Shown piece after piece: positions 38,801 through 63,648 of a stretch of DNA of 64,000 nucleotides. The stretch comes from Poronia punctata. Taxonomy: Eukaryota > Ascomycota > Sordariomycetes > Xylariales > Xylariaceae. Position numbers and translations under genes: made by a program. The notes under the pieces are model-generated. The model searched no databases and had not been told where the DNA came from. It saw nothing but the letters and a program-made list of their open reading frames with translations. The stretch lies in NCBI GenBank assembly GCA_022579005.1, contig MU401598.1:37567-101566 (forward strand), in the 5' to 3' direction. Each line of letters starts with the position of its first letter. Within the stretch, counting starts at the first letter, position 1.

Positions 38801-41800
38801 TTATAAGCACTATACTAAGTATAAAAAGCTATTAGGTTTTTATTTTCTTTAGCTATTTTAATTTAATAAAAAGGTTATTAAATATTTATTTTAGTAAATA
38901 TTTTAGCTTAAGCTAATTAGGTTAGCATTTTATTAATTAAAAAAAAAGTATTAGTTTTTTTAAGTAAGTATATTTAACTTATAATAATATATATATAGCT
39001 AAAGCAAGCTATTACCTTTTTAGGCAAAAAAGATAAAAGCTGCTTATAATATAGTTATTAGTTTAATAAACTTTTTTTATAAATTGTTTTAAATATAATT
39101 TTAATAAGTTTTAGCTTTTTTTAAAGTTATTTTATATAAAAAACTATATTTTAAAAATTCTAGTTTTTTATTTATAATAATATAATAATCTACTTTTACT
39201 TATTTAAGTAGCATTTTATTTAAACTAGCTTTACTAAATATATTTAAGTGTTTATAGTGTTATTTTAGTATAATTTATTTTACTAAATCTTATAAATCTT
39301 ATTAGTTAGCAAAAAGCATTTTTTTTTATAGTATTTAATAACTTGCTTTATTTTATATAAAAAAAGTATGTAGTATTTTATGTTTTTTTATTTAGTAAAT
39401 ATTATAAAAGCTTTAGCTATAAAAGTAAATATTTAAAAAGCATAATGTTTATATTATTTATAATTATTTTTTTTAACTTATATAGTTTTTAACTATTAGT
39501 TTTTTTTTGTTATTTTTTAGCAGCTTTAGTTAGTTTAGTAACTAAATAAGTTAATTATAATTTTTTTTATTTAAAATGCAGTTTATTTAGTTATATCTTT
39601 ATATTATATAATTTATACCTAAATTATTTTTTTAAACCTTAAAAGGTTTTAATATTATAATAAAATAAGTAGGTTTAAATTAAAGTTTAAAAAATTATAG
39701 TTTAAATTTTTTTACTTATAAGGATTTTTGCAATTTTTAAATTTATTATTAAATTAAAAAAAATAAATTTGTTTTTTATTTTTTTAGTTATTTTTTTATT
39801 ATATTATTTTTTATTTTTTGCTTTTATTAACTAGTTTTAATAATAAATATTAGCAGCAGCCTTAAAATATAAAATTAGGTTTTTTATAAAGTTTATAGCT
39901 ATTTTAAAAAGTTAGTATACTAGCTTTTAGTTATTTAAAAATAATAAACGTTTTTAATATAAGTTTATAAAAATATTATAGTATTAAAAAAACTTTTTTT
40001 TTAAAATTATATTATACTTTATATTAATAATAAAAAAAAGTATATTATATAATATATAACCTTATACTTTTAAATAAGCTTGCAATGCTTAATTTATATT
40101 TTATACGCTTTTTTTGTTATATTTTACTATTAGTGCAAGTTTAAAACTTATAATTTTTTTAGCTTAAAAATGTTTTAATATTTTAGTAGCAAAGCTTATA
40201 TTTAATATAAAATATAAATTTACTTTTATGTTTATAAAAGCTTTAGTACTTAAAGTATATTTATTGTTTATTATAGTATAGTTAACTATTAAAAGATTGC
40301 TTTTAAAAAGGTTTTTTAAAAAGTTAAATAAAATATTTTAATATGTTTTTATTTTTAAAGCTAATATAATACTATGCTTAAAATAAAAGTTTAATTTTTT
40401 TAAGCTAGTTTTTTTTTGTTTATTTAATAAATTTATAGCTTTTATAGCTTTAGCAATAATAAAACTAACTTAAGCAGTACTTAATTATTTAAATTTTGCT
40501 TTTTTAGCATAGTTACTGCTTTAGTGCTCTTATTTATAGTAAATAAAATACTATTTTTTAATAATTAATAATTTAGCTTACTTAAAATCTAGTTTAATAT
40601 AAATAGCACTATTTCTTTTAGTTTTTAAACTTAAAATCTTATAATAATTAATGTTTATTTTTTATTTTATAGTCTTTTTTTTTTTTATATATAGCTTTAG
40701 GTTTTATAGTAAATTTTTTAAGTTAAGCTATTGCTTTTTTTTTAAACTTAAGTTAAATATTTTTAAAATTAGCTTTTTATTTGCTTAAAAAGTTTTTATA
40801 TTGCTAATAATTAAAAATTTAAGCATATTTATAATATTATATAAAGGTAATAGTTAAGTTTACTTTTTTTAACAAGCAAAATATATTAAATTAGTTTAAT
40901 AATTTATTATATATATTATGCTTAAATTTTAATAAAAGTACTTTAGCTTAACTAGCTTATTTAGTAAATTTAATTTTAAAATTACTAAATTTATTTTTAT
41001 TAGCTATTTTAAAATCTTAGTACTTAATTTATATTGTTTTATACTTATTTAGATTATAGTACTATTAATAAAAGTGTTTTAATACCTTTTTTAAAGTTTT
41101 TAAAGTTAGTTTGCGTTTTTTTTTAATAAAATAAAAAATACTAATTTTTTAGCAGCTGTTCTTTTTATTTAACTTATAATATAAATACTTTTATTATTAT
41201 TATTAATAAAATAATTATAGTTTCGTTTTAATTTTCTTTTTAATAGCATATACTAATATTTAAATTAAACTTTAAGCTTTTTATTTATTTTATTGCTAAT
41301 AAAAATAAAAAGTAAGTTTATTTTTGCTATTTGTTTGTTTTTTATTTTAAATTTATATAATTTATTAAATTTTAAAGTAAACTAATAAAATTAGTTTATT
41401 AAAGCAACAGCAGCTATAATTATAATTTAATTTTTTAAAGCTATATTAGTTTTTTTTAACTTTTATGCTTTTTTTTGCTAAGCTATACTAGTAATATGTT
41501 TTTTTTTAAAATTTTAGTTTTAAAAAGCTTAACTAAGCTTAATAGCTTAAGCTTATATTATTACTATGTTTTTATTTAATAACCTTACTATATTATATAG
41601 TTTTTTATTAATAAATAGCGCTATTTATAATATTAACAACTTATATTTAAATTTTTAAAATATAATTTTTTAATTTTTAGTTACTATTTTAATAAACTTT
41701 TTTTTATTTATTAAGCTATAAAAGTTAAAATATGCTTAAATACTATTTAAAGTTATAGCTTTAAATAGTATTGCAAAAGTTTATTTTTTTTTAACAAAGT

Positions 41801-42290
41801 AAGTAGTATTAGCTTTTATTTACATTTATAGTTTTTAGTTTATTTATTTCTTAGTAATTAAAAACCGGGCTTAAATAAATGCTTTATTACTTACAACTTT
41901 TATAAAGTAATTAAAAAAAGTTAAAGCTGCTTTAATTTTTTAAAAATTATTTTTTTTATTTAGTTTATATTTTTTAGTATAAAAAGTTGTTAGTTTATAA
42001 GCAAAATAAACAAAGTTTTTAAATATTTACTATATTAGTTTTTTATATTTTTTTAAGTTTTAAAGCTTTATACTTTAAAAATTGTTTAAGTTAAACTAAA
42101 CTTAACGTTTAGCTTTAAAAGTATATAAGCTTTTAAAAGTAATAACTAAAAAATATACTTTATTTAGCATAGTATTATAAAAAGTTATTAAAAACTAAAT
42201 ATTTATTATATTTAGTTTAGTAGATTTTAATATATTAAGTAGTAAAATAATTATAGTTTTTTTAAATAGTTAATATAATAACTTTTAAAT

Positions 42291-42586
42291 TATAATAAAA
42301 TTAAAAAAATAACTAGTATAAAAACTAATATATACTTTATGTTAATAATAAAATTTAAAAGTAAAGAATTAAAAACTAAAATATATAAAACAGTATTATT
42401 TATACTTATTTATATTTTCTTTATCTTAGGTTTTTACTATAGCCCTTGCTTAAAGTTTAATTATAGTTACTACCTTTTGCTATAAGCCCTTAACAAAAAG
42501 GTAGTAAGTACGATCCTATATCTATAGGATTAATAGAATTAATTAGATTAATTAATTTAGGGACTAGGGACCACCTTTCTATTACA
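42291..42586 (+). repeat. Element B right LTR
   Basis: The outer end keeps GGGACTAGGGACCACC and GTACGATCC, which are A/T-only in the left LTR. Ends in CA directly before the TTAAT target copy. Confidence 0.87.
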
Positions 42587-45500
42587 TTAATAGCTAAATT
42601 ACTATGCTTACTAAAAAAAAAGCTTATAAACAAGACTTTTATAAGTTAAAAGATTTTTAAGCTAATAAAAGTATAAATTTAAAATTAATACTATAAAACT
42701 ATTAAAGTTATATTTGCTTTAAATAGTTTTTAAAAAGTAACTAACGCTAGCTATAAGTTTATTTAAAATTAAATTAATACTTTTATTAAGCTATTAATTA
42801 TTTTAGCAATTAAAGCATAGCTAAAAGCTAAGCTTAAAAATTAGTTAAAAAATGCTTAAAAGCTTATTTAAAAAATTAAGCAACTTTTTATATTATTAAA
42901 CATTATTATTAATATTACTATGTTAATAAAATACTGCTATTTACTTAAATAAGCTACTTAATAAAAGGTAAAAATAAATAAATAATATAAAAAATAGCAT
43001 ATAAGCTATAATAAAGCTAAAATAGCTAGTTTTTTAAAAGTATAAAAAAAGCTTATAACTAAAAGTTAGCTTAAAGCTATTAAAGTATAAATTGCTTTTA
43101 AATAAGCTAGGCAACAGCTTTATTAGCATACTATAAATAAGCAACTAAAATATTTACTTATTATGCTTATAAAATACTTTAACGTTTTTAATACTTTTAT
43201 TAATAAAAAAGTAATTAAAAGGAAAAAAAACTAGTATAGCGCTTTTATTACTACTAAAAACAATTTTGCGTTTAAATTAAATAATAAAGCTAAAAGAAAT
43301 TTAAAAGCTTTAAGCATTAGTATTTTTACTTACTAAACTTTAAAAAAAGCATTAGTAAGCGCTATATAAATATAGTTAGCTAAAGCTATTAGTTATTAAA
43401 TTAATTACTTATAATAAAGTTAAGCTTAAAAAAAGTATAGCTAAAAAAATTAAATAATACTATAAGCTTATATGCTAAAAAAACTTATACTAAAAAATTA
43501 ATTTTAAAAGTTTTAAAGTTAAAAAAGTAAACTTAAAATTTAAAAAATTAAAAAGCTAAAATAATAAATCTAATAAGTAGCTTAATATAAACTTAGTATA
43601 TATTATTATTAATTACTTTCTTATTACCTTATAAAAATTTAAAACTTATACTACTTTTAATAATAATTTTTTTTAATAGTACTATTTTTAATAACTATAA
43701 AGCTGTTTATATTATTAACTAAATTAAGCTTTTAAAGATTAACTTTATTACTTTTATTAAAAATAGTAATATTATTATAGCAAGCTTAGAAACTTTTTTT
43801 ATTTAGTATAAAGGTTATAAAATTATAAAAAGTCTATTAAATAGTATAAGCAAAAAAAATACTAATATATTAATTTTAAAAAATATAGCTTTAGTTAAAA
43901 GATTTTTTATAAATATTATATTAAAAGCAAGGTTGCTTAAAAAAAGCGTTTAGTATTATAAATTAGATTATATTTTACGTTTTAAAAATCTTATATTAAG
44001 CGTTATTATTTAAAAATTAAAAAATAGTATAAAATAACCTTTTCTAAATATAAGCTTATTTATTATTACTTTTTAAGTTTTTTAATAACTAAACTAGTTT
44101 TTATTAATTTTAAAATTTATTTTAATATAGTAAAACTAATTACTATTGTTTTATATAAGCAACCTTAATACTTTTTAGCTAAGTTACTTAAAGTATATAA
44201 AGCTTTAAAAAACTTATAGTATAAAAAATTAAAATATTTTAGGCTTAAACTTTTATAAGCATTAGTTTACTAGGCTAAAAGTATAAAAATTAATAAAATT
44301 AAGCATATAAAGTATAAAGCGTATACTTAAATATATGCTATATAAGTAATCTTTTAAAAGCTTTTAAAAAAGCGCATAGTGCGCCTTTACTAGCAGATTT
44401 TTTAAAATCTTTTTAATTACTTTATAAAATATAATAGTTTTTAATATAAGTTATTAGTAAAAAATAAGTATAGTAATTACTTATACTTTAAAGCTTTAAT
44501 TTTAAAAAACTAGCTGCTTATAATTAATACTATTTAATTAATAAATTAATAAATTAATAAATTAAATAGTAATTTAAATTATTAATTTGCTATATATATA
44601 ATAATAATAAAAAAGCAATAATTTATAATTTATAAACTATAGTATATAAGCGCTAAGCTAGTAAAAAAAAGATTATTTTAAAAGGTTTTTTTATATACGT
44701 TAAAAAGCTTATTAAAAGCAAGTTGTTTTAACGGATTATAGCTAAAAGCAGCTTATATAGCTATTTAGCTATATAACTAAAGCTTTTTAAAAGCTAATAA
44801 CTTATATTTACTTATAAAAGTGCTTTATTTATAATTTTAGCAGTACTATTAATAGTACTTACTAGCTTAAATAGTTAATAAGTTAGTAAATTTTAAGCTA
44901 AGCTAAAGCTTAGTTAAAGTTTATAAATATAAAGCATACTTTATAAAGCATAATAAACTTATTACTTATAAAAAGCAAAACTATAAAATAAAAGCAAAAG
45001 CTTATATAAATTATTTAATAAAATATAAAGTAATAAATTTATATAAAATCTAAATTTTAATAATTAATAAAATTATTATTATATAAAATATTTAATTTAA
45101 TAAAAAGCTTTTTTATAATATATAAGCAAAGCTATAGCTTAATAAAAGTATATAAAAAATAGTTAAGTAGCTTATTATATTAAATAAACAAATTTTTAAT
45201 TTAGTAAACTTATAAAGCGTTAAGGTTACTATATAAAGCAAAAATAGTACTAGCGCTTTAAAATTTGGAAAAATAAAAAGTATATAACTACTAGCTAACT
45301 TATTAATTAAAAGCTAATTAAAAAAGTATAAATTAAAAGTAAACGCTTTTAAAAAGCATATAAAAGCTAGCAATATTATTTTTTATTAATTAAATATAAA
45401 AACTTATAACTTTTTAATTATTTTTAAAGTTAAAAAAATAACTAAGTAAAGTAAAAGATTTATTAAAAGTTATAAAGCTTATATTTATACTTAGTAATAT

Positions 45501-48500
45501 ATAAAAAAAGCTAAAAACAAGTAGTATAACTACTTAAAAAAAAGTATTTAAAGTTAAAACTAAAAAGTATACTTATTAAAAATAGCTACTTTAAAATTTT
45601 TAAAATTAAAAAACTTTACTTAAAATATTATTATAGTTATTAAATAAGTAAATTTAGCAAAATTAATAGCTTTAAAAAACTTAAAAAAATTAATTATTAA
45701 CTTAAAAAAATTAATTACTTAGTTAAAAAAAAATTTAACTATAAAAAGCTATTAAGTAATAAAAAGTTTATAGCTTGCTTATAAATAAAATTAGCTAAGA
45801 ATTTAAAGCTTGCTTACTAATTAACTTAATTATAAAGTATTTGCTTTTATTTAAAAAATATATTAAAAATAAAAAATATATACTTTAAATAATTATAACT
45901 AGTTTAACTTTTTAAAAATTTACTTTATAAAGCTAAAAAAAATAATTTAAAAAAGTAATAAAAAGCATTATATTTTATATATAGTAATTATAGCTACTAT
46001 AAATTAACGTTAAGCTAACTACTTAAAAGCTGCTTTTAAACACTTTAAAATTAATAAAAAAAACTTAACTAAGCTACTATTAAAGTTTTAGTATAAGCTT
46101 TTTAAACATTTATTAAAAAATTAATTTTAAGCAAATATAGTAAAAAAAATTAAAAACTTATAAAAACTAAGTACTATAAAAAAATTATAAAAGTTATTAT
46201 AAAGTATAAGCTATTACTTTTAAAATAAATATTTAATTATAAATTTAATAGTTAAAAGTATTTAAATATATATAAAGCATATTTTATAGTTAAAAGTAAT
46301 TTTTAATAAGCTAATATGCTTTAATTTACTTATATAATAACGCTTATAGCTTAAACGCTATGCTTTATAATAGTTTTAATAGCTTACTATAACTTAAAAG
46401 TTAAATAATTTAATATAATAAGCGCTTTTTTTAATATAAGCAAAAAAAATTAAAAGCTTATAGCTTATAAGTTATTTAATAGGTTTAAAAATAAAAATAT
46501 AGTAATATTGTTTAAAAAAGTATTATATAAGCTAAAAGATTTGCTATTACTTTAGTATTAAAGATTTGTATATACTTTTTACTTATATAATATAAATGCT
46601 TTAATTAAAAAACTTTGTTTTTTTTATACTTAAAATTAAGCTATTTTTATTATTTTTTATATAAACAACTTCTTAGTGCTATATTGTTTAAAGTAAAAAG
46701 CTAAAGTATAAAAGATTATTAACTAAATTAAAAAAATATATAAGCTTAAAAAGCAAAAAAATATAAGCTAGTTTTTAAGTATAAAGATTACTAAAAATTA
46801 TAAAAATTAAAAACTATTTTTAAGCTATAATTAATATATTAAAAAGATTATAAAAAAGTATTACTTAGTAAATAATAGTTAAATTTTAGCTACTTTATTA
46901 CTATTTTAAAAGCTTAAAAAGTACATAAAAAAAGTAACTAAAGCGTAAATAATTTTTTTTAAAAGCTTATAAATTTAATTTTATATACTATAATAATAAT
47001 TTAACTAAATATAGCATTTATAGCTTTATAGCTATTAAAATTTTTAACTAATTTAAGTGCAAAGCATACTAAAGTAATAAAATAAATAACTTAATACTTA
47101 TACTATATTTAAAACTTAAAAACTATATATATTATTTATAATTAAAGCATATAAGCTTTATTAATTGCTAAAAATATATTTTTTATAAATAATCTTAATA
47201 CTAAAAAATCTTTTTATAAGTATATTATATTTTTATTTAAAAATATAATTAGTTAAAAAGCTATATAATAAAGCATAGTTACTATTTTTATTACTAAAGT
47301 AAAAATTTATATATTAGTACTTATAGCTAAAAAAATTATAGCATTAAAAAAGTTATTGAATAATATTTAGCTAAACTTAGGTTAAGCGCTTATAATTAAC
47401 TTAAATAATTAATAAACAATTTACTTAGTAGTAAAAAAGCATAACTATATAAAAACTTATTTATACTATATAAATATTTAAAATATATAAATTAAATAAA
47501 AATATAAAAAAAGCTTATTTTAAATAATATACTTTTTTATAAATTAAATACTTGCTAATAAACTTATAAAAACTTTTTTTATATTAAATTTAAATACTTT
47601 AAAGCTTTAATTAACTTATAATATATAAATTTTATAATTAAAAAAAAGCAAAAAAAGTACTAAAAATAAAATTAATTAATATAAGCTTAAAAGCTTGCTT
47701 AAATAAAAAGTTAAATAATTTTAAAAATTATAAAGCAATTTTTTTTATTTTATTTATTTAAATAAAACAAAAAAAATAGCGTACTATAGCGTACGCAACT
47801 TTAATATTAACTAAAAGCTTATTAATACTAATAAAAGTAAAAGCAAAAGTAAAAGTATTAAAAAAAAGCGTACTAAAAAGTAAATAGTTAAAGTTAAACT
47901 GCTTTTTTAAAATGCTTAAAGCAATATAAATTGCTATTTATATATATTTCTTTAGCTTATAATTAACTATATTAGTATAAAAATTATTAAATATAAATAT
48001 TAATATTTATATATAGCTTACTATATTTATAACTAATAAATTTTTTTTTTTAAAAAAATATTAAAAAGCAAAAAAAGAATATAAAAAAAGCTATATAAGC
48101 AATTAATATATATTATATATAATTTAAAAAAATTATATAACTTAATAAAAATTACTTATATAAAGTAATAAAAGTACTTAAAAGTATAAAAATAATAAGA
48201 AATATTAGTAATTATATTATAATAATTACTATTTTAGCTTACTATAGCAAACTAGTAATAATTTAAATATAAAAAAGCATAACAGCTAGCTTTTTTAAAG
48301 CGCTTTTTAGTTTTAAAAAAGCTTTTATAAGCTTTTTTTTTATTTTTAGCTTTACTTTTACTTTTATTTTTATGCTTAAAGGCAACTAAAAAGCTTAAAC
48401 TAGCTTTAAAAAAGCAAAGCTGCTACTAAGTAGTTACTTAGCTTTTTTTTTTTTTTTTTACTTTTTTTTTAACTTTTTTTTTTAACTTTTTTTTTACTAA

Positions 48501-49288
48501 CTAAGCTTAAAAGCTTAAATAATAAGTAAGCAAAAAGTATAAAGAAACTTAGCAAAAAAGTAAACAATAAACTAAAGGTTGCGCTTTTTTAAAGCGCTAA
48601 AGCAGCTATTTTAATAGCAAAGAAAAATTAACTACTAAAAATAAGCTACTACTTATTAATATAAATACTTACTATATTATAAAAAATTATATTACTACTT
48701 ATAAAAGCGTAAAGGTTTTAGCTGCTAGCTTTTTAAAAGTATTAGCTATTTTGTTTTATTTTAAAAAATACTAAAAAAGTTAACAAAGCACTTAAAACAC
48801 TACTAATAAATTAATTATAAAAAGTAATAAGTACTTATAACAACTAGCAAAAAGTTTTTTTTAAAATAATAATATATTTAATTAACTATTACTATATTAA
48901 AATGCTTTAAAAGTATATAAAGCTATTAATTTATAAAATTTACTTATAAAAAGGTATAAGCGCATTATTAAAAAAAAAGCAAAAAAAGCAAAAAAATTAT
49001 AAAAAAGGTTAGGTAATAAAGTATATTTTAAAAAGCTTTTACTTTTTTTTACTTAATAGCCTTTATAGCACTACTATTTATAACTACTTATATAATAACG
49101 TAAAAAGATATTAACTTAAACTTTATAATTAATTAAAAATAGTTTATAATGCAAAAATAAAAGCATTTCTAATTTTTTATTTTGCTAACTACTTACTTAA
49201 AAAATACTAACTTTATATATAAACATTTTATTTATACTTATATATTTAAACAGCCTTATTATCTACTAAGTAATTAAGCTAAAAAGTA

Positions 49289-49538
49289 TATTATAAATAA
49301 GTAAGTTTATAAGCACTTAGTACTTTACTTAGCAAATCTTATAGCTAACTAATAACTATAGCTATGTTTTTAATAAATATAAAAAAAGATCTTTTATCTT
49401 ATACTATATATTAGTTTTTTAAATTTATAAGGTTATATAACAATATACTAAATTAACTATATTATATAAACTTTAATCGCTTTTATATACAAGCACTAAT
49501 TTGTCTTCCTAATTTAATTAACTCTTACCTCTGCAAAA
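49289..49538 (+). repeat. Element C right LTR (250 bp)
   Basis: Same length as the left LTR. The inner start is fully decayed, while the outer end keeps TTTGTCTTCC and CTCTTACCTCTGC, which the left copy has as TTTGTTTTTT and CTTTTACTTTTAT. Confidence 0.88.
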
Positions 49539-49543
49539 TTAAT

Positions 49544-51493
49544 TATATTATATATAAAAAGCAATTTATTAAAGATAATAAGTTATTAAACTAAATAAAA
49601 TTAATATAAGGTCTATATAGTAAAGAAAATACAGTTATAATAAAAACACTTTTAAAAGAAAATAAGCTTTTACTAAGAGGTTTTATTTATTTATTTAGTA
49701 CTAAAAAAAACTATAAATAAAGATTCTTTTATATATATAATAAAATTAATTATATATTTTCTTATTATTAACTAAGTATTAATAATTAAAAGTTTTATAT
49801 ATTAAGTATTATTATTAAAGTATAATAAATATAATAATTTAGCTATTATAGTAATAATTATAAAAGTTATATTAACTTGTTTAAAAATATTAATATTTAA
49901 AATAAAAGATTTAAATTTAAAACTAAACTTTTAAGCTATAAAAATAAACTAACTTTAAAAATTAAAGTTTATAGCTATTTTTTTATAAATAAAGCAGTTT
50001 ATATTTATATAGTGTTAACTTTATTAAAAGTAAAACTAAAGTAAACAAATAATAATTAATCTACTTTTATATAACTTTTAAAATAATGCTTTATAAGTTT
50101 TTATATTTAGCTATAATTAATATTAGCTACTTTTTTATATAAAAAGTATTAAAATGTTAATTTATTAATAGCAACTTATATTATACCTTAAAAGTTAAGT
50201 ATAAATGCTTTATATGTTTTATTTTAAGCAATTAAAGCAAGTTTTATCTTTAAAACCTTAAAATATACTTATATAATAATAATATATAAAAAGTATTTTT
50301 ATTAAGTTTTATTTTAAATTTATTTTATATAAACTAAAGCTTATTAAAAAGTACTTTAAATAATTTAAAGTTTAACGTTTTTAGGTTTTTTATTTAACTT
50401 ATATAAAGCTTATTATAATTTAATTAGTTTAATATATTAATATAGGATTATTTTATATAATTTTAAAATATTATTAAAAAATAGCATAGTATTATATTTT
50501 ATAAATATAAACTTTTTAATATATTGTATTAAAATTATATACTTTATTATAAAGATATTATATAGTTATTCTATATAATTTTAATATTTTTACTATATAT
50601 TATAAAGTATTATAAATAGTTTAAGCTTTATATATTTATTATATAACATATTTTAAAAAAACCTATTTAATAAATAAGGTTTTATAACTAGTAATTAAGT
50701 AGTTATAAATTAAATAAAAAGTAGTACATTAAAATTAATTAGTTATACTTAGCTAATTAACTTAACCTTGCTATATTTTTATTATTTTTATTATAATTTA
50801 TCTATAAAATTTACTATATTAATTTATAGTTTTTAAACACTTAACTATACTTTATATACTATAGTTAACTTATAGTTTTAAATTTATTGCTATTATAAAA
50901 TAAAGCAGTTTTATATAAAAATTAAAAGTTAAAGCTTATTTTTTATATTTCTTTTAATTTATTTATTTATTTAAAAATGCTATAAGCTATAATTTTCTTT
51001 TTATATTTTCTTTATATAAAGCCTTTTAAGTTAATTATAATTAAAGCAGCTAAAAAACTATATTAATATATAAAGTATAAATTAGCTATTAAAAACCTAA
51101 TAAATACTTTGTTTATTAAAGTAAATTAGCTTACTTATTATAACTTTAATATTTAAAGCTGCGTTTTTAATAATAGTGTTATTATTAGTTTTTTATAGCT
51201 TATTTAATTTATATACTTATATTTATATAAATAATAATTAATTAAAATATATATATTATAATATATTAATATTAATAATAGTTTTTATATAATTTAAATA
51301 ATAGCTAACTAAATATTTTTAATACTAGCTTTTAAAATTAAATAACCTTTAAAGTTATTATATATAGCTTAGCTTTTAAATTATCTAGTTATAATTTTAT
51401 TTATTTAATATTTTAATATGTTATATTTAATTTATACATTTTTAAATAAGAACTTGTAAACAATCAGTTATCTTTAAAACTCAGTATAACTAA
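49544..51493. other. AT-rich tract containing a solo LTR
   Basis: About 1.9 kb of RIP-like DNA between element C and the SDR gene. Apart from the solo LTR at about 50639-50842 I can identify nothing. Composition returns to normal abruptly at about 51480, next to the SDR stop codon. Confidence 0.6.
50639..50842 (+). repeat. Solo LTR of the element A family, heavily decayed
   Basis: It shares with the 199-bp LTRs of element A, in order, TATAACATATT, AACCTATT, TAAATTAAATAAAAA, CTAATTAACTTAACCTTGCTA, TCTATAAAATTTACTA and TTATAGT. No second copy or internal region is visible nearby, so it is a solo LTR, likely left by LTR-LTR recombination. Confidence 0.7.
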
Positions 51494-52606: not shown

Positions 52607-53187
52607 TTTCGCCTTGCCCCCAAAATTCTCTCCAATTGTGTTCTGCTACAAGTCAACAGAGGAAGGGCCGGCGAGGCCGTTGGATTTGCGCGCTTGCCTT
52701 TACGGCGTCCAATATATTAGATGCGAACATCCTGACAGGCGGTTTCATAGATAATGCTGGTGTTTCTGGGACCGGGTGTTGTAAAGTACTTGTAATCGGG
52801 GGCAACGCCAGAGCGGCAGTTTTCGCAACGGGCCGGGCTCGGGCCGGCGAAAGATGGATCGCCTTGCGACGGCCGTTTTGAAGAAGCGCACGCATATTCC
52901 TCAGCTCTTTTGGTGGTGAAGCTTGGGAGCGTGTTTGTCTGAATGACAGGCTCGCTGCCGTGGTACAGTCCAGCTATATGTACTAAAAGGCAGCGTAGAA
53001 CAGACTTTGTCCTTCATCATTCCATCATCATCGCGCCTGATCCATGACGGCATGAGCCTAATTGATGCACTGGCCGCTCTTTGTCCGTCACCATTCTCAT
53101 GACGCAACAAATGCCCCTGCTTCCAGCCGCCTTGTCATTCACTGTGCAAATGCTGAATAAGCAACTTCTGATCGGTAAGACCAAGTA
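52607..53187. other. SDR promoter region and spacer before element E1
   Basis: About 580 bp of normal composition upstream of the SDR gene. Several overlapping open frames occur, none with recognisable features. It ends at the TA (53186-53187) that precedes the terminal sequence of E1. Confidence 0.55.
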
Positions 53188-53283
53188 CCATAGTGGCCCC
53201 TGCAGGGTAGAGTAAACCGTCCATCAACTGTTGAAGTGGGGTAAATGGTTGGTGCACGGTCCATGATTGGTTTACAGACAGTT

Positions 53284-53400
53284 GAAACGCGCTAACTGTT
53301 TAAAGCCATGATCGTTCAGAAAATTCGCACGTTCTGGCCAATTAAACGTTTGAAGGGCTTAAACGTTCACAGATCCGATAAACGTTTACGCGTTCATGGC
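53284..53400 (+). repeat. E1 left subterminal AAACGTT cluster
   Basis: Three exact AAACGTT words (53344, 53361, 53380) plus variants (GAAACGCGC, GCGTTCATGG) about 95-210 bp inside the left end. The word is near-palindromic when extended to AAACGTTT. Confidence 0.75.
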
Positions 53401-53427
53401 CTGCAAAATTGATTTGGGCTGATTGAA

Positions 53428-53550
53428 CCCCCCCCCCCCCCCCTCCCACCTGTATAACCTGAGGTCTCGTCTTTCTTTCTCAACACCATCTCCGCCACCA
53501 GAACACCACCACCACCACCACCATCATCATCATCATTATCATTATCATTA
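53428..53550 (+). repeat. Poly-C run and CCA/TCA triplet repeats in the E1 leader
   Basis: A run of 16 C at 53428-53443, then ACC and ATC triplets at about 53503-53550. These lie upstream of the first E1 gene, in its presumed promoter or 5' leader. E2 has a run of 13 C at almost the same distance from its left end. Confidence 0.85.
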
Positions 53551-53726
53551 GTTTTTATAAATATACATACATTATCTCTGTATCTCGTCCGTGTGTCGTG
53601 TGTTGTGTGTCGTTGCTCTTGCGTTTGGTGTCGTTGCGCTGTTGTGTGTCGTTTCTTTGTCTCTTCTTTGTCTTACCTTACGTAACCCCCGGTCCCTCTC
53701 CGGCTCTCCGGCTCCCCGCCGCCGCC

Positions 53727-53899
53727 ATGGATATCGACGCGTTAGAGAAGTTGCTGGCAGCAGCCAAAGCCAGAGAAGCCGTAAGCTTAGAGTAAACATA
53801 ACCTAATCATCAGGTTAAATAACAATGGTACCAGGAAATGCAGCAGCAGCAGCAACAACAACAGCCCCCGGCCCCGGCCCCGCCTGTCCAGCCCCAGCC

Positions 53900-53930
<31 letters not shown>

Positions 53931-55369
53931 AAGCCCGCTGCCCCCAAGGAGCCTGTATGTATATGTTATATATGTCAAGATATGTCATATATATGAGTAG
54001 ACATGTCTAACACTTTGTCAACACTTTGTCAACACTTTGTCATGGACGCTTGCTGACTTACGTAATAGGAGAAGACCCAACGGGAAAAGGACCTGGACGA
54101 CGTCCGCGCCAAGCGTGGAAAAAGAAAAAGAAAGCAGCCCGCCCAGACGGCAGAGGACCAGGAGGCCGAGGACATTGTTGCCAAGGCCGACGAGCAGGTC
54201 AATCGCCGCCACCGCGGTAAGTCGTTTTAATATTACGTGTGTTGTCTTGTATATGATACCTCTAGGTCGACTGATCTTTGCTTCTTGATGTGGTTGGTGC
54301 TTTGCTTAACATATAAACTCGTACTGCTTTACTATAACATTGCTTGACAAACGTAAGTGACCGAGAACATACCTATTGCTTAATCTATTAGCTTGTTGTT
54401 TGACTGCGTATCCAAGAGCTGTATATGATTAGGATCATATATGTAGTTGATACTAACAAAAACAATAGAAGTCCGATGGGAACATTTTCTCTACGGAGAA
54501 ATGAAGAGTGCCCGCTTAGAGGGCCTTATGAAGAAGATCTGTGGCGACATTAGCCCAGATGAAAAAATATATGACGAGGAGCGCCGGGCCGTGTTGGCTC
54601 TACATCGACGTTTTCAAAACGAAACGTTGAACAATGCCTTGGTAAGTGTTTAGAGTGCTGTTGCCATACAAACCTCTTACATTTTGTAGAAATTTGTTCG
54701 CCAAATGATCCAGGGCGACGATATGGTACCGGGCGTCTGGGCCGAGCTGGCCGATCTTCGGATCAATCATGATCCTGAAGTTTTACAAGAAAAAATCGGC
54801 AGTGCGTGGTCTTGGGACCGTTTTTATATTATTTGGCATTGGTTCCGCGATTTCGTCGATGGTGAGAATAGCAAGCCGCTTGCTAAATATTATTGCGAGC
54901 GTATGTTGTTTTTCTGTTCCCTGCGACATTGGTTGATTAGCTAATATACAAAGCAGAGATGTGGCAGTGGGTGGTCCTTGAGACCATTCAATATATACGT
55001 ATTGAGAAGAAGAACCCTCGGGAGAAGGCCGGCGCGCAAAAAATGCGCATCGAGCGTTACGTCGCCCTTCCTGGGCATGAAAATTTTGTCAAGGTCCGTC
55101 GGGACCATTTTGTTGAAAAAAGCCCTGCGCTCAAAGGTTCCCGGGGCGCCAAGAAGCAGAAGGTGGACGTCGCCGCTGCCCGAGCCCACGTCAAGATGAC
55201 GGCCCCCCCCCCTGCCGACGACGATGAAGAGGGCCAAGAAGGCGGAGAAGGCAGAGAAGGAGGAGAAGGAGGAGAAGGAGGAGGAGAAGGACAAACCGGG
55301 GCGGAGGCCTCGGGAGGAACACAAGCTGGGGCGGAGGCATCTGGGGCGGCGGCCTCGGGAGGAGCATAA
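53727..55369 (+). CDS. E1 gene 1: low-complexity protein of unknown function, six exons
   Basis: Proposed exons are 53727-53780, 53835-53954, 54069-54216, 54469-54641, 54690-54900 and 54957-55369, giving 372 residues. All five introns are GT-AG; the third has a perfect TACTAAC branch. The start MDIDALEKLLAAAKAREA sits in a GCCGCCGCCATGG context. In order: a short helix; a Gln run and Pro/Ala-rich segment ending in an Ala run (exon 2); a basic patch KRGKRKRK that could be a nuclear signal (exon 3); a folded-looking middle with RWEHFLYGEMKSARLEG, WSWDRFYIIWHWFRDFVDG and MWQWVVLETIQYIRIEKK; then an acidic Glu/Gly-rich tail. I do not recognise the family. Its place inside E1 suggests a transposition accessory or DNA-binding partner (inference). 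A C10 run at 55203-55212 precedes the tail, and a second frame is open there. Confidence 0.72.
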
Positions 55370-55671
55370 GGAAGAAGAGGACGACGATGACGATGACGAT
55401 GACGACAATGTTTGCTTTCTTCTTTCTCTTGCTTCTCGGTATCGGTATTCGTTGGCGTTGGCGTTGGCGTTGGCGGTGGTTTCGGGTTTGGTTTCGGGTT
55501 AGGTGGCTTGGATGTTGCTTTTGTTATACAATTTTGCTTCCTATATTTAGCTTTGCTTTGTATATTATACATTGCATTGCTAAATAGGTACATAGCTCGC
55601 CTTTTTGTTAATAATACCCATTGCCATGGCTTGCTTCTATTCTCGTAAATCTTATGCCATTGACGTGTTAC

Positions 55672-56487
55672 TTATGCTATAATAGACACATCTGTTGATT
55701 GTGCTAGAGAGTCTAAGGTATGTCGAAGCTGACCACGCCCTTCTTTCTGTTGCGTCAAGTTTTGGACTCTTGAGCGCGCTTCTTGAACTGTTGCAACACT
55801 ACACGGCGTGGATATATTCAAGTGTGCTTTCTTGGCCACGAGCCCTTCTTTCTGTTGCGTCAAGTTTTGGATTTCTTGAGCGCGCTTCTTGAACTGTCGC
55901 AACACCATGGGGTCGACGGCGTGGATATATTCAAGCTTGCTCTCTTCTGCCCTTATGTCGTCATCGAGTTCGTCCACTGTCTTTCCTTGTAACTCGGTTA
56001 GATACGCGAGCCTGTCCTGGTTGTGGTTGATCACATCGCCAACTTGGGCATCTTCCTTGAGCTGTTCGCATTCCCCCTTCATCCGGTGGTGGTTGATCGC
56101 ATCGCCAACTTTGTCTTTGGCAGCCCGGGCATCTTCCTTGAGCTGTTCGCATTCCCCCTTCATCCGGTGGTGGTTGATCGCATCGCCAACTTTGTCTTTG
56201 GCAGCCCGGGCATCTTCCTTGAGCTGTTCGCATTCCCCCTTCATCCGGTGGTGGTTGATCGCATCGCCAACTTTGTCTTTGGCAGCCCGAGCATCTTCCT
56301 TGAGCTGTTCGCATTCCCCCTTCATCCGGTGGTGGTTGATCGCATCGCCAACTTTGTCTTTGGCAGCCCGAGCATCTTCCTTGAGCTGTTCGCATTCCCT
56401 CTTCATCCGGTGGTGGTTGATCGCATCGCCAACTTTGTCTTTGGCAGCCCGAGCATCTTCCTTGAGCTGTTCGCATTCCCCCTTCAT
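55672..56487 (-). CDS. E1 gene 2: tandem-repeat coiled-coil protein, 5' end unresolved
   Basis: An open frame of at least 271 residues on the strand opposite the other E1 genes. Its N-terminal half is built of 27-residue repeats (unit MKGECEQLKEDARAAKDKV, then GDAINHHR), five full and one shortened by five residues. A charged helical C-terminal half follows (GKTVDELDDDIRAEESKLEY, with NLTQQKEG twice). The heptad-like charge pattern predicts a long coiled coil. The frame is open upstream to 56562 (..GVNSTCSDNIDVLYNTTNHHQ) with no start, so an upstream exon is likely; CTGAAG there could be an acceptor, but I cannot place exon 1. It shares a divergent upstream region with gene 3. Function unknown. 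The antisense frame of the repeats is also open but gives odd Trp/Ser-rich protein and is probably a shadow. Confidence 0.55.
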   Translation of the reverse strand: MKGECEQLKEDARAAKDKVGDAINHHRMKRECEQLKEDARAAKDKVGDAINHHRMKGECEQLKEDARAAKDKVGDAINHHRMKGECEQLKEDARAAKDKVGDAINHHRMKGECEQLKEDARAAKDKVGDAINHHRMKGECEQLKEDAQVGDVINHNQDRLAYLTELQGKTVDELDDDIRAEESKLEYIHAVDPMVLRQFKKRAQEIQNLTQQKEGLVAKKAHLNISTPCSVATVQEARSRVQNLTQQKEGRGQLRHTLDSLAQSTDVSIIA

Positions 56488-56495
56488 CTGGTGGT
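56025..56495 (-). repeat. 81-bp tandem repeats within E1 gene 2
   Basis: Units start at 56091, 56172, 56253, 56334 and 56415, each 81 bp and nearly identical. They are preceded by a 66-bp unit from 56025 that lacks 15 bp. The period is a multiple of three and the frame is kept. Differences between units are only a few bases, so the array is recent or kept uniform by recombination. Confidence 0.95.
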
Positions 56496-56562
56496 GGTTG
56501 GTTGTGTTGTATAAGACGTCTATGTTGTCGCTGCATGTGCTGTTTACCCCTAGGAACTTCAG

Positions 56563-57054
56563 TTAAAAGGAGGTACAAACCTCATAGTTGACAACAAAAG
56601 CTTTAAACTAACCAGAAAAATAAGAAAAATAAATATAAAACGTATAAACAATATGCTAAAAGCAAATAGAACGTATTCTTAATGCCCGGATCTAGATTTT
56701 TCTATTAGCAAAGGCCAAATAACTTAACGTTAAGGCTGTATCGTAAGCAAAAAGATACATACGATTTTAACTCCCTTAGTATGGCAACCACGACCGTTGG
56801 TGTAAGATAGATGGAAAGAGCGCCTCTTTTCCACCCATCTTTCCCACACTTGGAGAATTTCCCACCTTTGCAGGGAAATAATTCTTTTCCCCATGGTTCT
56901 GCAGTGCACTCTGCACAAGTGCACAACGTTTAAGGTCCTTTTATTCAACGCAACACCCGTCATTGCGTACACATTGCATCGCATTGCATGTACCACTTCT
57001 CATAATACCTATTCGAGGGTTACATTTGTTATTCGTATTTCTCCTCGACTAGGC
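56563..57054. promoter_or_regulatory. Divergent upstream region of E1 genes 2 and 3
   Basis: About 490 bp between the open frame of gene 2 (minus) and the chosen ATG of gene 3 (plus). The left half is AT-rich (56581-56760). In the right half the gene 3 frame stays open back to an ATG at 56893, but that stretch reads like leader sequence. Confidence 0.45.
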
Positions 57055-60000
57055 ATGGCGTTGCGTATTCGGAGACGAGGCAATCGCCTGGCGATTATTG
57101 CGCAGATTCAAGCCCAAGCCGCCGCTCGTGCCCGTGCGAGAGAGGCCGCTGGCGAAGGCGAAGGTGAAGGCGACAATGGCGCTGGTCCTAGTGATCCTAT
57201 GTCTATGGACAACAGCCTTATAGACATATCTGCCAATGCAGGTCTAGATGATGAAGACATCCCCGATTTTGCGACTGTAAGTCATAAGAACACGGGTCCG
57301 AAATTTAACTATAGGTTATTAACAGTTAGCCAACAGGACTTTGACGACGTCGAGTTAACAGAACAACTGCAACATATGCGTGACGAGGCTAGCTTACTCT
57401 TCGATCCCCTAGAGGTGACATCTGAGGGAAACGTCATCGAGACAGCGCAAGACGGAGACTTTCCAGACATCGAAGAACTCCAGCAGCTAGCCGACTTCCA
57501 GATTATCGACGAAGATCCTCCCGAAGACGACGATATATCTGATGGTGACAATGAAGAGATTGAAGGAGGCCCTGTTGTCGAGCCTGGTTTCGATGGAGGT
57601 TCTGCTGAAGAGCCCGAGACCTTGCTTGCTTCGTCTCGCAAACCCTGGGACGACGAAGATAAGTCTGAACCGATCCCACATCGTCGCAACTTCAACCTCT
57701 TGCCAGACCTCCACATGGCATTGGCTACCTGGACACAGCTGAACGGCATTACCAACAGTGCCTATCGTGGCCTCAAAGAAATCCTCCAGAGTCAGGTTAC
57801 CGCTGATACTCTTGATGACATTGCGACGTTACCCGTGACGGTGCACACATTGAAGAATACAATGAAGCGACGCCTCCCATTAATCGAAATGAGAAAAGCG
57901 AGCATCCCATTGCGTGCTGAGAAGCTCTCGACCGCCAGACTATCGCGCAAACAAGGTGGAGTGCCAAACCAGGACTTGTACTACTTCAACTGCGTCGAAT
58001 ACTTAAAGGCTTTGATCCTATCAAAGATTAAGGACGACATGTACTTCGGCTTGGCCCTTCTTGTTGACGACAAAGACAAGATCCATCCATGGCATTCCCG
58101 TGCTTGGGCTTCGTCTGCAAGGTCTACCTCAGGACAATTCGCCCGTGGCCGTGACGGAGAGGTCATTCTTCCATCTGATTTCGTCGTCTATGAATGTCAT
58201 GTGGTCAACTGTCCTACTTGCCACCGAGGTGAGACGACCTATCATCATGGCCGAGTCGTGGAGGTTTGGCGCGACCAGCGTTCTGAACCGCTTACAGTCC
58301 AGGGTGAAGTCATCCTCCGGATCGAGCCTATCGTCCGCCTTAACTATATCAAGGGGGCGTTAGCTGACATTGCAGATGACTTTGAAAACTTTATGCTAGA
58401 AGATACACCTGATAACGAATACGTCCTGCTTGAAAGTCAAGGCATGATTGTTGCGCAAGATCATGTACAATGCTTAGTACCTGTTAAGGTGCACATCGAC
58501 AACAGTTATGGAAGCAGTGTCGACCTTCCCGACGATACCCCGGTGTCCGATATACCCGCTTACGACTGGTTTATTCGACGGAAAGTAAACACTGCGCTTA
58601 AACGGTTCTTCCCTATCGTGCAAAGCGATCCAATCCGAGCCGAACTTGAAGTGGAGGAGTTTACGCGAGAGGCTATTATAAAGTCGCTTAGCCGAGAGAA
58701 CGTATACTCCGTTCCTTTTATTCTGTTTGCTGATGGCTTCGGCCTGTACCGCACCATGCACAAGTCGATCATGGGCATATATCTAGGCATTGCCTCCTTG
58801 AAGAGAGCTGATCGACTAAGACAGATGAACGTGATGCCGGTTACCCTAGGACCCCACGGGTCCAATGACGACGATGTCTGGAAACAGATAGGCCATAGTC
58901 TCCGAGGCGTCGAAAACGGACTTGAAGTCGACTTGCATGGCCAGCCAGCTTTTATTTATGGCCACGTTCTCTTTTTATCTGGCGATTTCCCTCAGCAACA
59001 AGAGAACTCTGGCTTTCGTCGTCCTACAGCCAAGCAAGGCTGCCGCATGTGTGATGTGACCTTGACTGATCGAGGTAACTTGGACTTTGATTTGACCAGT
59101 GGACGCCATCATCGCCACCATCACGAGATCATGAGACAACGGGCCAGTATGAATCTCAAGCCAAACAAAGCACAGAAAGAGAGAGTAGCAAACATGTTTG
59201 GTCTTGCCATGGACACTCCAATGCTCTTCAACATCATTCCGGCTTTAGATGTTATCCGAACACGGCCAGCAGACGTGGCACACTCTGAACTTGGTGGTAT
59301 TACCAAGATGATCCATCTGCTAATCATCGATCAGGTGCTCACGCCAACAGGAAATACAGCATATGCCAAAGTTATGCGTTTGTTTCCGCTTCACCCTGGA
59401 TGGCCACGTATCCAGTCACCCCATCATGTGCTGCAATACTCTCTTACAGAACATGGACGTTGGGCTGTTGTTGCTCCTATTCTCTTCCGAACGTGGTTGA
59501 AAGCTAATTCGAACTATGTCAAGTTATCTTTTCGCAGGGCCATCAAAGAGGTCTTTGCCCGAGGTATTCGACGAGGAGAGTTTGGTGAAGATCCTGACGA
59601 GATCGATATTCTTGTCAAGATCCTCGTTTCCAACGTATCAACTGTTATCTTGTTGACGACAGATAACTTGCCAGTTCAGTATCGCGATACGGGACGCTTT
59701 AATGAGCAGGTTAAGCAGAGTCGTCGCTTGTTTCAACTCTTCTGTGAGGCGACCTCGACTGCCGTGTCGCGACGTTCGCAATCCAGATCAGCCGAGCCTG
59801 TAGGTTCTATGCTGCCTACAGTTGCTAGTGGCACTGAGGCAATAGAGTCTGGCCCTGCTGCCGTGAGCGCCGCTATCGCAATTCAGTCCGTTGAGGAGAT
59901 AGAGGATCCTCAAGTTGGACTTGAACCTGTCGAAATGACCACGGCAAAGTCGACAAAATACAAGCTGTGGATGTCTCGGCCTAACGTCCATATCGGCTTG

Positions 60001-61477
60001 CATTATCAAGAAGTGCTTGAGGAGTACGGGTTGCCGTCGCTTCCAAATGTCATCGTCTTCGAGATCAAACACAAGTCAGTCAGAGTTTTCTTAAGCTTTC
60101 CCCTCCCGAATTAAATGACGCACATGCTAAGCAATGGAAAATAAACAGACTGTGGAAGAAGATGGTGTATACGACTAACCATAGGGCCCCCGAGAAGGAC
60201 TTGTTTGCGTGGGAGAACGTGGCGCAGACGCTGCGATTTGTGTTGCTGAACTCCTTCGCAGACACCGATCGTGAGCTGACTAATCAGCTTCAAAACCTAA
60301 ACTCTACGACGCCCTCACTCTTTGCAAGCATCACCCGGGGACAGCTGGTGCCAGGTGGTGCTAACGGCGACGACGAGGTTGATGATGATGAAGCTGGGAT
60401 TGTCTTGGTAGCCCGCCATGAAAGCTACATCGAGGTGGGGTTGACTGCGCAACTCAGACCTGAGACGCGTCAAAAATTGGGATTGGCCACGAGAGAGAAA
60501 GACTTCTCTCCAATGTACCGACGGATGCTTACCTCAGCCTATGCCAACCATTACAGCCGCCAGGTCACAATCATGGGTACGGGCCAGAGACTCAAGTGGT
60601 GGGGCTCTGTGACTTGGTCTACAAAGTACGTACAGTTTCCTTCGGTGATACATCCTTTTGGTGGTTTCCTCCCCTTGTTTTGGTGGTGACAAGATGTATT
60701 CGAGGTCCGACTCGAGGTCTCTTGGTCGGTGGTTGTATCCCGTGTTACGAGGTGTACCAAGCCTGGCAAATGATCTGTCAGCTTGTTTCTTTCTCAAGAG
60801 GCTCGTGCTCAGTTGTATCTCAGAGATGTGGCTCATCTGGAAATGTATCCCGAGACGTGGCTCATCCCTTTGATGTACCAGTCCTTTTGCCAAGGGTCTT
60901 GATTCCGGTTTTTTTACTCCCCTTATGCATTGATTACGTGTGGCCACACCACTTCGGAAGTGAGGGGAAAGGCTAATCAGGTGATGCAGGAATGAGCTCA
61001 CCGGTATGACGAATCGAGTAACCAAACGACCGAATCAACACGTCAGATGCCGAACCGAGGAAAACAACACAGTCTATGGCCGAATTGATCACATTTTCTC
61101 GCACGCGGCTGTGTACGGTACGCCCACTGTTTCTTTTTACCCTCCCCGAATCTACCCGCGGTTTTTGGTCAACTGTGTCCGAATGTTTCCGCTGACTTGA
61201 GGACTTTCTAGGTGACGAACGCGTCCGCGTTTTCCTCGTTGTATCTCCCGTTAGTCAGACAGGTATCGCTGAAGACGATGTCGACCAAGCGACAGGCCTC
61301 GATATCTACAGTCTCCAGGATCCCATTATTGTAGGTCTACCGGCTTTGTCACAGGAGAACGTCTACATGGTCCCATTCAAGCCCGACGCGAATCACAACT
61401 GGATGTTCGTATCCGACTTCGAAGACCGCAGCGATTGTCGACTCCTTCATGTCAATTGGAACGTCGGTTTCATGTAA
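57055..61477 (+). CDS. E1 gene 3: probable transposase (CACTA/Plavaka-like), four exons
   Basis: Proposed exons are 57055-60074, 60149-60625, 60990-61117 and 61212-61477, giving 1296 residues. The introns (74, 364 and 94 nt, all GT-AG) each restore frame: KHK|LWKK, STK|NELT and VYG|DERV. I chose the ATG giving MALRIRRRGNRLA over 56893, which adds Cys-rich leader-like residues. Seen: a basic N-terminus; a long acidic region; CHVVNCPTC then HH (about 380-395); FADGFGLYRTMHKSIMGIYL (about 557-576), like the DG-x-x-(L/P)-Y/F-(K/R) acidic strand of CACTA-type transposases; GCRMCDVT then a His cluster (about 662-690); and DVIRTRPADVAHSELGGITK (about 731-750). The C-terminal part, PEKDLFAWENVAQTLRFVLL and VYGRIDHIFSH, resembles uncharacterised fungal proteins I know only as hypothetical. 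The transposase role rests on these motifs plus its place inside E1. An in-frame 60-nt intron at 57277-57336 is possible. Confidence 0.78.
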
Positions 61478-61482
61478 GTCGG

Positions 61483-61600
61483 GATGGATGGGATGGGGGC
61501 AATGGCACAGGATGGATGGGGGAATGGGGGCAATGGGACAGGATGGATGGGGGAATGGGAATGGGAATGGGGGTGTGGGTGTGGGTGGGGGAATGTAGCA
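61483..61600 (+). repeat. G-rich minisatellite after the gene 3 stop codon
   Basis: Imperfect repeats of GGATGGATGGG, GGGGGCAATGGCACA and GGGAATGGGAATG begin a few bases after the TAA and end in GTGTGGGTGTGGGTGGGGG. Many closely spaced G3-G5 runs on the plus (mRNA-like) strand make G-quadruplex formation in the 3' UTR possible. Confidence 0.85.
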
Positions 61601-61675
61601 TAAGTCCAAAAGCCACCTGAATGGAATCAATTGCCCTGAATGATCAAATCAGAAATAACCGTTGATGCGTGATAA

Positions 61676-61905
61676 ACACTTAAAATTGCAAACGTTCGGA
61701 ATGACAGACGTTGAAAAGGGCTGTAAACGTTTGGAAGCCATGAACGTTTACACTGATAAACGCTTACAGAGCCGATAAACGTTTGGGCGCGATAAACGTT
61801 TACGGGCCACAAACGCTTGTGGCTGGTTAAACGCTTAAGCCACTTAAACGTTTGAAATTCATAGACGAATGCTCATTAGTTCACCGACCCATGAACGTTC
61901 ACCAC
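61676..61905 (+). repeat. E1 right subterminal AAACGTT cluster
   Basis: Five exact AAACGTT words (about 61690, 61725, 61777, 61794, 61846) plus variants AAACGCTT (three), GAACGTTTAC and GAACGTTC in 230 bp, spaced about 15-25 bp. Several sit in the longer context GATAAACGTTTAC. The cluster ends about 60 bp from the right terminus. Confidence 0.85.
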
Positions 61906-62196
61906 CCACCAACTGTAATTAAACTATCTATTTACAGTTTATTCTACCCACCCAAGGCTGGTACGGTACGTGGTCCCCTATAATTATGTCAAGTTTCTAG
62001 TGACTAAGGGCCTGTTCGGCAGCAAAAAAGCTCCCAGACCTACAGTGACTTCGATACATTGATGTCTACTTGTCCTAACTAAATACAGCCAAAGCGCGAC
62101 GCTAGTAAATCGAGGTATTTGAGAGTATTGATCTTGACCTCCTTACCCACATGCACCTAGCCCCCCCCCCCCCTCCAACCCCTTGACCTACCTACC

Positions 62197-63035
62197 TACC
62201 GTAGCGGCCCTTGCAGGGTATAGCCAACCATCCATAGACCATTAGCCCTACTCCAAACGGCTAAGTGGCCTTTAATACTTGCAATTGCCAACGTTTACCT
62301 GGCTAAGCGTTAAAGAGCCTTTTAAACGTTTATAGCCCGTAAACGTTTAGCTAGCTATAAACGTTAAGTACTTATTTTCTTTATACAATTGTATACGCAA
62401 CTAAGTACTTTAAAATTAAAATGCAAAGCTACTTAGCCTGCCCCCCCCCCCCCTTTCTTAATTGCTATAGCTAAAGCTACTACTTAAAGCTATAAACTAC
62501 TTAACATAATAGTTGCAATACTTTTATTCTTATATTAATAAAAATAAAAAGAGTACTTGCATATATACGTAGCTATAGCTATATAGTTAATTTAAATAGC
62601 TATATATAGCAATAATTCTAACTTTAATTTAAATCTTAACCTTATAAGTGATTTAAATTTCCTTTTATACCTATTTTGTTTTATAAACCTACTTACCTTA
62701 TAATTTAAAATTAGACAGCCTGCTATACAATCTAGTATAGCAAGTTGTCGTTTTTTTGATTAATTAATTGATTAATTAACTGATTGATTAACTAATTAAT
62801 TAAATACTTAGGTTGTAAAGGTAGGTTTATAGGGTGTAGGTTAAGGTGTTATAAACGCTTAATAAACGCTTTAATAAATAATTAAACGCTTAATAAACGT
62901 TTAAACGCTTGATAAACGTTTAAACTAATAGACAAATGCTTATTTGTTTATAGCCTCGCAAACGTTTATGACCTATCAACTGTAATTAGACCATTTATTT
63001 ACAGTTTATTCTACCTACTAGAGGCTGGTACGGTA
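62197..63035 (+). mobile_element. Element E2: non-coding derivative of E1, nested in F
   Basis: About 840 bp. Left end CCGTAGCGGCCCTTGCAGGG and right end AACTGTAATTAGACC...TTTACAGTTTATTCTACC...GGCTGGTACGG match the ends of E1 nearly word for word. Both subterminal AAACGTT clusters are present (62285-62370 and 62845-62965), and a C13 run lies about 245 bp from the left end, as in E1 (240 bp). The centre is AT-rich with no frame. Flanks read TACCTA on both sides, which could be a 6-bp duplication, but this lies in ACCT-rich DNA. The precise start may be 62197 or two bases later. Confidence 0.75.
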
Positions 63036-63355: not shown

Positions 63356-63388
63356 GGAGCTTTTTACCTTATAGAGGTAAAAAGCTCC
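63356..63388 (-). repeat. Perfect 14-bp hairpin conserved in the D/F family
   Basis: Arms GGAGCTTTTTACCT and its exact reverse complement are separated by 5 nt (TATAG). Element D carries the RIP-decayed counterpart near 13913-13955 at a comparable distance from its left end, so the hairpin belongs to the element. Confidence 0.85.
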
Positions 63389-63648
63389 CAGACCCAATTT
63401 TTCTAATAAAAGTAGAATATCTGGTCACTTTAGGTTAGCCTGCTAGCCAAATCTAGTAAAGCGTGCTAAGGGTACAGAAAGTACGGTTAAATTTTTGCAA
63501 GTCTACTTTTTAACAATGTACTGTAAAATTTAGCGTATTTGCTATACTAAATTAAGGAAAGTATACATCTTAGCGTCTTAGATAGTATATGGCTCCACAA
63601 AACGCAAAAGTTCCCAGGGCATTTTAGGGGTTGCCAAACACACCCTAA

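Follow-up and report, generated by a model that had tools for sequence, protein, structure and literature searches.

An apparently intact transposon of Poronia punctata with a transposase predicted to fold like the RAG1 core

According to a published description, transposases of the CMCT clade are characterized by the signature D, D, C(2)C, H(3-4)H, E, and the ends of the corresponding elements read CA..TG in most cases, so that these ends are not strictly defining (PMC12730594). The same source describes several kinds of element by their ends and target-site duplications: EnSpm has CAC..GTG ends and 3-bp duplications, Plavaka has TGT..ACA or CATCA..TGATG ends, IS3EU combines a 6-bp duplication with TAYGG..CCRTA ends, and ESTA, reported from rust fungi and in some cases accompanied by a TET/JBP gene, combines TA duplications with RAG1-like transposases that contain C(2)C and H(3-4)H motifs (PMC12730594). 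Here, we compare with these systems a DNA transposon of the ascomycete Poronia punctata, E1, which is located in a window of 64,000 nucleotides (the whole stretch that was analyzed, corresponding to positions 37,567 to 101,566 of the forward strand of contig MU401598.1; coordinates given without a contig handle are positions in this window). E1 is a real and apparently intact transposon of this fungus. Very probably, it is an autonomous cut-and-paste element of the CMCT clade, the group of CACTA/EnSpm, Mirage, Chapaev, Transib, and RAG1, in which gene 3 would provide the transposase together with a BAH-like module, gene 1 would act as a helper, gene 2 would be a passenger, and short elements of the E2 type would be derivatives.

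E1 comprises 8,779 bp on the plus strand (53188..61966), beginning with C and ending with G, and is flanked by a TA on the left (53186..53187) and on the right (61967..61968); exactly these boundaries had been proposed in an earlier sequence-only reading of the window. The inverted ends are imperfect and follow the consensus CCRTA...TACGG: The left end, CCATAGTGGCCCCTGCAGGGTAGAGTAAAC (53188..53217, plus strand), and the right end, CCGTACCAGCCTTGGGTGGGTAGAATAAAC (61937..61966, minus strand), match at 20 of 30 bases, a level that 1 in 200,000 random pairs drawn from E1 attained. Inside both ends lie subterminal AAACGTT arrays, one at 53344..53387 on the left and one at 61690..61853 on the right, the latter with plus-strand spacings of 17–19 bp in 5 of 7 cases. 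On both strands together, the left 350 bp contain 5 and the right 350 bp 13 occurrences of AAACGYT, compared to 2 in the intervening 8,079 bp; shuffled ends (1,000 each) contain on average 0.11 (maximum 3) on the left and 0.36 (maximum 4) on the right. The matching ends and motif clusters that the sequence-only reading had pointed out are both borne out by these numbers. One observation calls for caution: The core GGGTAGARTAAAC, when at most 2 mismatches are allowed, is found 5 times in the window against 3.8 expected and is not rarer than chance. The case for a transposon is based on the full ends, the positions of the ends, and the other copies, not on this core.

The size of the target-site duplication was deduced from a short derivative copy on contig C288, for which a paralogous empty site was found (C219:229-399). 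This site spans the insertion point with 72% identity to the joined flanks and reads GTTAATAAGCGC TA GCTGCA, versus GTTAATAGGTGC TA, element, TA GCTGCA in the occupied state. The 20 bases surrounding the insertion point align without a gap, in a neighbourhood that is AT-rich and repetitive, and the alignment score is 137 if the flanks are joined with one TA, compared to 130 with two and 126 with none. Because the empty site contains a single TA, TA constitutes the target-site duplication, directly so for the C288 copy and by inference for E1; a comparison with empty sites had been recommended as a check. This empty site was the one obtained with the joined flanks of three further copies, and the joined flanks of six copies gave none among 40 scored of 341 candidates. 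A 3-bp TAC duplication, which the first ends had suggested, was discarded, as its third base is part of the element's end.

Additional copies with the same ends, the existence of which had likewise been put forward as a check, are present in the genome. A second full-length copy (C116:3260-12000) possesses both ends, gene 1, gene 2 on the minus strand, and gene 3. Its raw identity to E1 amounts to 65% over 8,572 aligned bases with 3,006 differences, 2,832 of which are changes from C in E1 to T in C116 or from G to A, while 32 run in the reverse direction; the changes are strongest at CA/TG sites, where 84% and 88% are changed. The C116 copy has been heavily mutated by repeat-induced point mutation (RIP). 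If RIP-type positions are omitted, 174 of 5,740 positions differ, and E1 and C116 are therefore close copies. By the customary thresholds, the RIP indices of E1 (0.73 and 1.16) are without a RIP signature; those of C116 are 1.53 and 0.39. That E1 is free of RIP while its close sister has been stripped of about three quarters of its G+C pairs may reflect a late arrival, a transfer, or an escape. Another E1-like left end on contig C405 is interrupted by the end of the contig.

The short derivatives are exemplified by E2 (62199..63033, plus strand), a TA-flanked element of 835 bp with the same ends as E1; since it contains no open reading frame of at least 50 residues, its original designation as a non-coding derivative holds, and its status as a non-autonomous element is supported. 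Among the matches listed, 25 pieces of the genome resemble E2, fragments included, part of which were inspected for their ends; apart from E2 itself, E1, and C116, seven of them are near-complete copies of the E2 type (C375, C158, two on C146, C288, C244, and C495). All 15 left ends inspected start with TAC(C/T)RTAG, and 14 of the 15 right ends terminate in TA, C54 being the exception, where the placement of some copy ends by best match to the consensus favours right-looking ends. Two side observations concern the surroundings of these elements. The sequence to the left of the C158 copy (C158:93594-93759) is repetitive: About 30 copies of it are listed, many of them at most 700 bases from a contig start, and it appears to be a subtelomere-like or assembly-breaking repeat. 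Beside E2, the motif AAAAAGCTCCCAGACC occurs at 62024-62041 and 63378-63395, in one case with an inverted partner just upstream, and is possibly the end of another small element.

We then turned from the ends to the coding capacity of E1. All three coding units of the sequence-only reading are present, although gene 3 encodes 1,276 residues and not 1,296 as had been stated. Gene 3 (57055..61477, plus strand) consists of five exons (57055-57276, 57337-60074, 60149-60625, 60990-61117, 61212-61477), and its product matches the nr entry P0001 letter for letter. With positions computed from the exons, the putative catalytic residues on the plus strand are D540 (58732..58734), D624 (58984..58986), and the glutamate E983; D624 is followed by C643 and C646 (59041-59052), and H959 and H963 lie together with E983 at 59989..60063. 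These residues fit the signature given above for CMCT transposases, and all seven are present in 67 of the 71 aligned members, E1 included; three of the four exceptions have gaps and one has Y at the second C. The spacing between H963 and E983 is 20 residues, as it is between H942 and E962 in RAG1.

Relatives of gene 3 were sought in protein sequences: A first search retrieved 17 proteins, gene 3 itself included, from 7,998 scored candidates, and a profile search retrieved 86 proteins, several of which are rows of the profile, from 7,994. The named hosts include Xylariales, Trichoderma, Colletotrichum, Ascosphaera, Blastomyces, and lichen fungi, other hits come from metagenomes, and the proteins are listed as hypothetical or uncharacterized. 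Gene 3 has no Pfam match above chance. The Plavaka family PF18759 is matched at E ≤ 1 by 3 of 38 relatives (the best with 26.7 bits versus a cut-off of 26.3) and not by P0001; PF02992 (Transposase_21) has no match in the Poronia genome, but as it has none in any control genome either, this negative carries no information. Neither gene 3 nor an 18-row profile retrieved anything relevant from the PDB by sequence. The genome also contains distant relatives of gene 3 on C1, C64, C132, C289, C434, and C149, which show 19–31% identity, are riddled with stops, and represent other, older families of the same kind of transposase; an end-like pattern occurs once each in C289 and C149 and in none of the other four. 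The C-terminus of gene 3 (60990-61477) shares with its distant relatives the conserved stretch GRIDHIF...VGLPAL...VYMVPF...WNVGFM.

The fold predicted for gene 3 resembles that of the RAG1 core, and the predicted structure thereby shows the RAG1/Transib-like core expected of the CMCT clade. Together with the residue signature, this prediction supports the original assignment of gene 3 as the transposase. A BAH-like module with a CCCH motif precedes the predicted catalytic core: Residues 312-505 (58048..58629, plus strand), which include C361, C366, C369, and H377, align to the BAH-like domain of the model, and the motif is kept in 53 of 71 members. In the model, this domain has a BAH fold; the structure matches ranked 33–50 are mostly BAH domains (ORC1, DIM2, EBS, SHL, PBRM1, Rsc2, and MET1) with a root-mean-square deviation of 2.9–4.5 over 115–143 residues; exon 2 of E1 folded alone gave a pLDDT (predicted local distance difference test) value of 31.7 and was unusable. 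The similarity is absent at the level of sequence, since PF01426 (BAH) matches 0 of 38 family members at E ≤ 1 and the segment of E1 not even at E ≤ 10, and a profile-profile comparison with two Poronia BAH domains is not significant. This discrepancy leaves room for another interpretation, in which the segment, instead of reading chromatin, is a β-barrel insertion bearing a zinc knuckle that only looks like BAH and functions in DNA binding or dimerization. BAH domains carry an aromatic cage motif, whereas the strand expected to hold it reads IQE-like, by eye, in the family consensus, and the conserved CCCH motif would suit contact with DNA; however, the concentration of BAH domains from different proteins among the structure matches argues in the other direction. 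We regard a BAH look-alike as possible, though short of probable.

Gene 1 (53727..55369, plus strand; 372 residues in 6 exons according to our own exon model) encodes a basic protein that represents the conserved second protein of E1; the nr entry P0018 is a shorter model of 254 residues that starts later. Four hits were obtained, namely P0018, two proteins of Xylaria intraflava, and one of Parahypoxylon ruwenzoriense. Gene 3 and gene 1 bear consecutive locus tags in Parahypoxylon (001475, 001476), and one such pair in X. intraflava is two tags apart (540483, 540485), its members lying on contigs of equal length. For the second X. intraflava relative, P0020, the hits include no gene 3 partner, and no gene 1 was found for the other hosts of gene 3. 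With 46–57% identity, these pairs are not recent copies, and genes 1 and 3 have consequently travelled together in at least three genera. No known domain was found in the conserved part of gene 1 with Pfam or in a PDB profile search, the single PDB match, huntingtin, being discarded as a product of low-complexity sequence. By its position and composition, gene 1 is plausibly a DNA-binding helper and the leading candidate for binding to the AAACGTT arrays.

Gene 2 is a different case. Its 271-residue frame on the minus strand (55672..56487, with the first ATG at 56487 and the open frame extending upstream to 56562) overlaps a region of DNA similarity (55722..56493, minus strand) to contig C161, which encodes the host SMC5 (match to PDB SMC5, E 1.2e-59). 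Within the genome of Poronia punctata, to which all comparisons of gene 2 refer, its product is 75% identical to the C161 protein over 114 columns and 96% over 28 residues, the homology being confined to a piece of the coiled coil. This piece contains five tandem units of 81 bp (56080..56484, minus strand), single units of which are 95–98% identical to the host SMC5 DNA over 85 bp; the host gene has one such unit, C116 three, and E1 five, which implies that the capture of SMC5 predates the split of E1 and C116 and that the number of units has changed since. Weak Pfam matches of gene 2 arise from its repeats. Judged by these sequence comparisons, gene 2 derives from the coiled coil of host SMC5, a piece of which was captured and amplified in tandem, and it is a presumed passenger; this origin removes it, in this genome, from the list of conserved transposition genes. 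Of the two helper proteins that the sequence-only reading had envisaged alongside gene 3, gene 1 is retained, as it adjoins gene 3 in two other genera, and gene 2, a captured piece of a host gene, is rejected on the comparisons within this genome.

One might still suppose that gene 2 is a selected accessory gene, whose SMC5 coiled coil was taken over, and whose repeats were expanded, on account of a benefit to transposition, for example by bringing the ends together. The frame remains open through all five units and both full copies contain the SMC5 piece, but a repeat unit of 27 codons preserves the frame by itself, and E1 and C116 share an ancestor (174 of 5,740 non-RIP positions differ), so that a common SMC5 piece is no test of selection. 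Moreover, the tail of gene 2 contains, in our reading, a frame-shifted repeat of SMC5 sequence. A selected function is thus improbable, and we continue to treat gene 2 as a passenger.

Compared by description, the closest described kind of element is ESTA, with which E1 shares the TA duplication (for E1 via the derivative copy), the CMCT motifs, and a RAG1-similar transposase, and from which it differs in that it does not come from a rust, has CCRTA..TACGG ends, and carries gene 1 and the SMC5 piece. E1 may be nothing more than an ESTA of an ascomycete, a member of the TA-duplicating EnSpm-like lineage (Kojima 2025), and the BAH-like domain an overlooked feature of ESTA or of the CMCT clade at large, given that E1 shows the TA duplication, the RAG1-like transposase, and the C(2)C and H(3-4)H motifs by which ESTA is defined (PMC12730594). 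However, ESTA is known there from rusts and no named gene 3 hit is a rust, the group has mostly CA..TG ends (PMC12730594), and the comparison is one of descriptions; we consider this identity to be only just short of an even chance. With respect to the CMCT clade as a whole, E1 deviates by its CCRTA..TACGG ends instead of CA..TG and conforms by its TA, as seen at the C288-copy empty site, to duplications of 2–5 bp. Transib, ProtoRAG (BbRAGL), and RAG1 resemble E1 in the predicted core fold and in the order of catalytic and zinc residues, but the identity is about 10%, E1 has the BAH-like insertion, and Transib produces 5-bp duplications versus TA in E1. Subterminal arrays and the proteins TnpA and TnpD are found in En/Spm, and E1 is similar to CACTA/EnSpm in its subterminal motif arrays, its second protein, and its CMCT motifs. 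None of the families that the sequence-only reading had suggested fits on ends or duplication size: E1 lacks both the CAC..GTG ends and the 3-bp duplication of CACTA/EnSpm; it shares the CMCT motifs with Plavaka, whose PF18759 is touched by few gene 3 relatives, but has neither a PF18759 match of its own nor Plavaka ends; and KDZ (Zisupton) requires an 8-bp duplication, whereas E1 has TA only and no longer flank repeat by eye. IS3EU differs from E1 in the size of its duplication and has ends in the opposite reading to CCRTA..TACGG. A literature search of titles and abstract openings found no mention of this Poronia element, of a BAH domain in a transposase, or of the capture of SMC5.

From these data, a mechanism can be proposed for E1 as a CMCT transposon. 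Gene 3 would be a DDE enzyme (D540, D624, E983) with CxxC and HxxxH motifs and a RAG1-core-like predicted fold; it would cleave at the CCRTA ends and join them to TA sites, thereby duplicating TA, where the cutting chemistry is suggested by the fold. At the ends or at the target, the BAH-like module may make contact with nucleosomes or chromatin proteins. Gene 1 would most likely bind the AAACGTT arrays and aid the pairing of the ends, as TnpA does for En/Spm. Gene 2 would be carried along as a captured, tandemly expanded SMC5 fragment, and E2-type elements, which retain the ends only, would presumably be mobilised in trans.

Elsewhere in the window, the regions 14000-28000 and 35000-51000 have mostly 10–20% G+C and flank DNA of balanced composition, with a G-rich break near 17000-19000; the indices at 36-50 kb are RIP-like (1.55 and 0.31).

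As the family of 86 proteins mostly escapes Pfam, many annotations of fungal transposons probably lack it. A further-reaching proposition, to which we assign somewhat less than an even chance, is that a widespread, unannotated lineage of RAG1-like transposons exists in ascomycetes, in which a built-in BAH reader with a CCCH zinc motif ties cutting or insertion to the state of nucleosomes and gene 1 binds the AAACGTT arrays. RAG1 is derived from a transposase, and its chromatin reader, the PHD finger of RAG2, resides in a separate chain; if the proposition is true, the fungal enzyme would be a single-chain counterpart of RAG1 with RAG2's PHD finger. A RAG1-like fungal transposase with a BAH-like domain in the same chain would make the origin of the chromatin dependence of such enzymes testable, and one genome offers for this purpose an apparently intact element, a sister destroyed by RIP, short derivatives, and what appears to be a tandemly expanding piece of a captured host gene.
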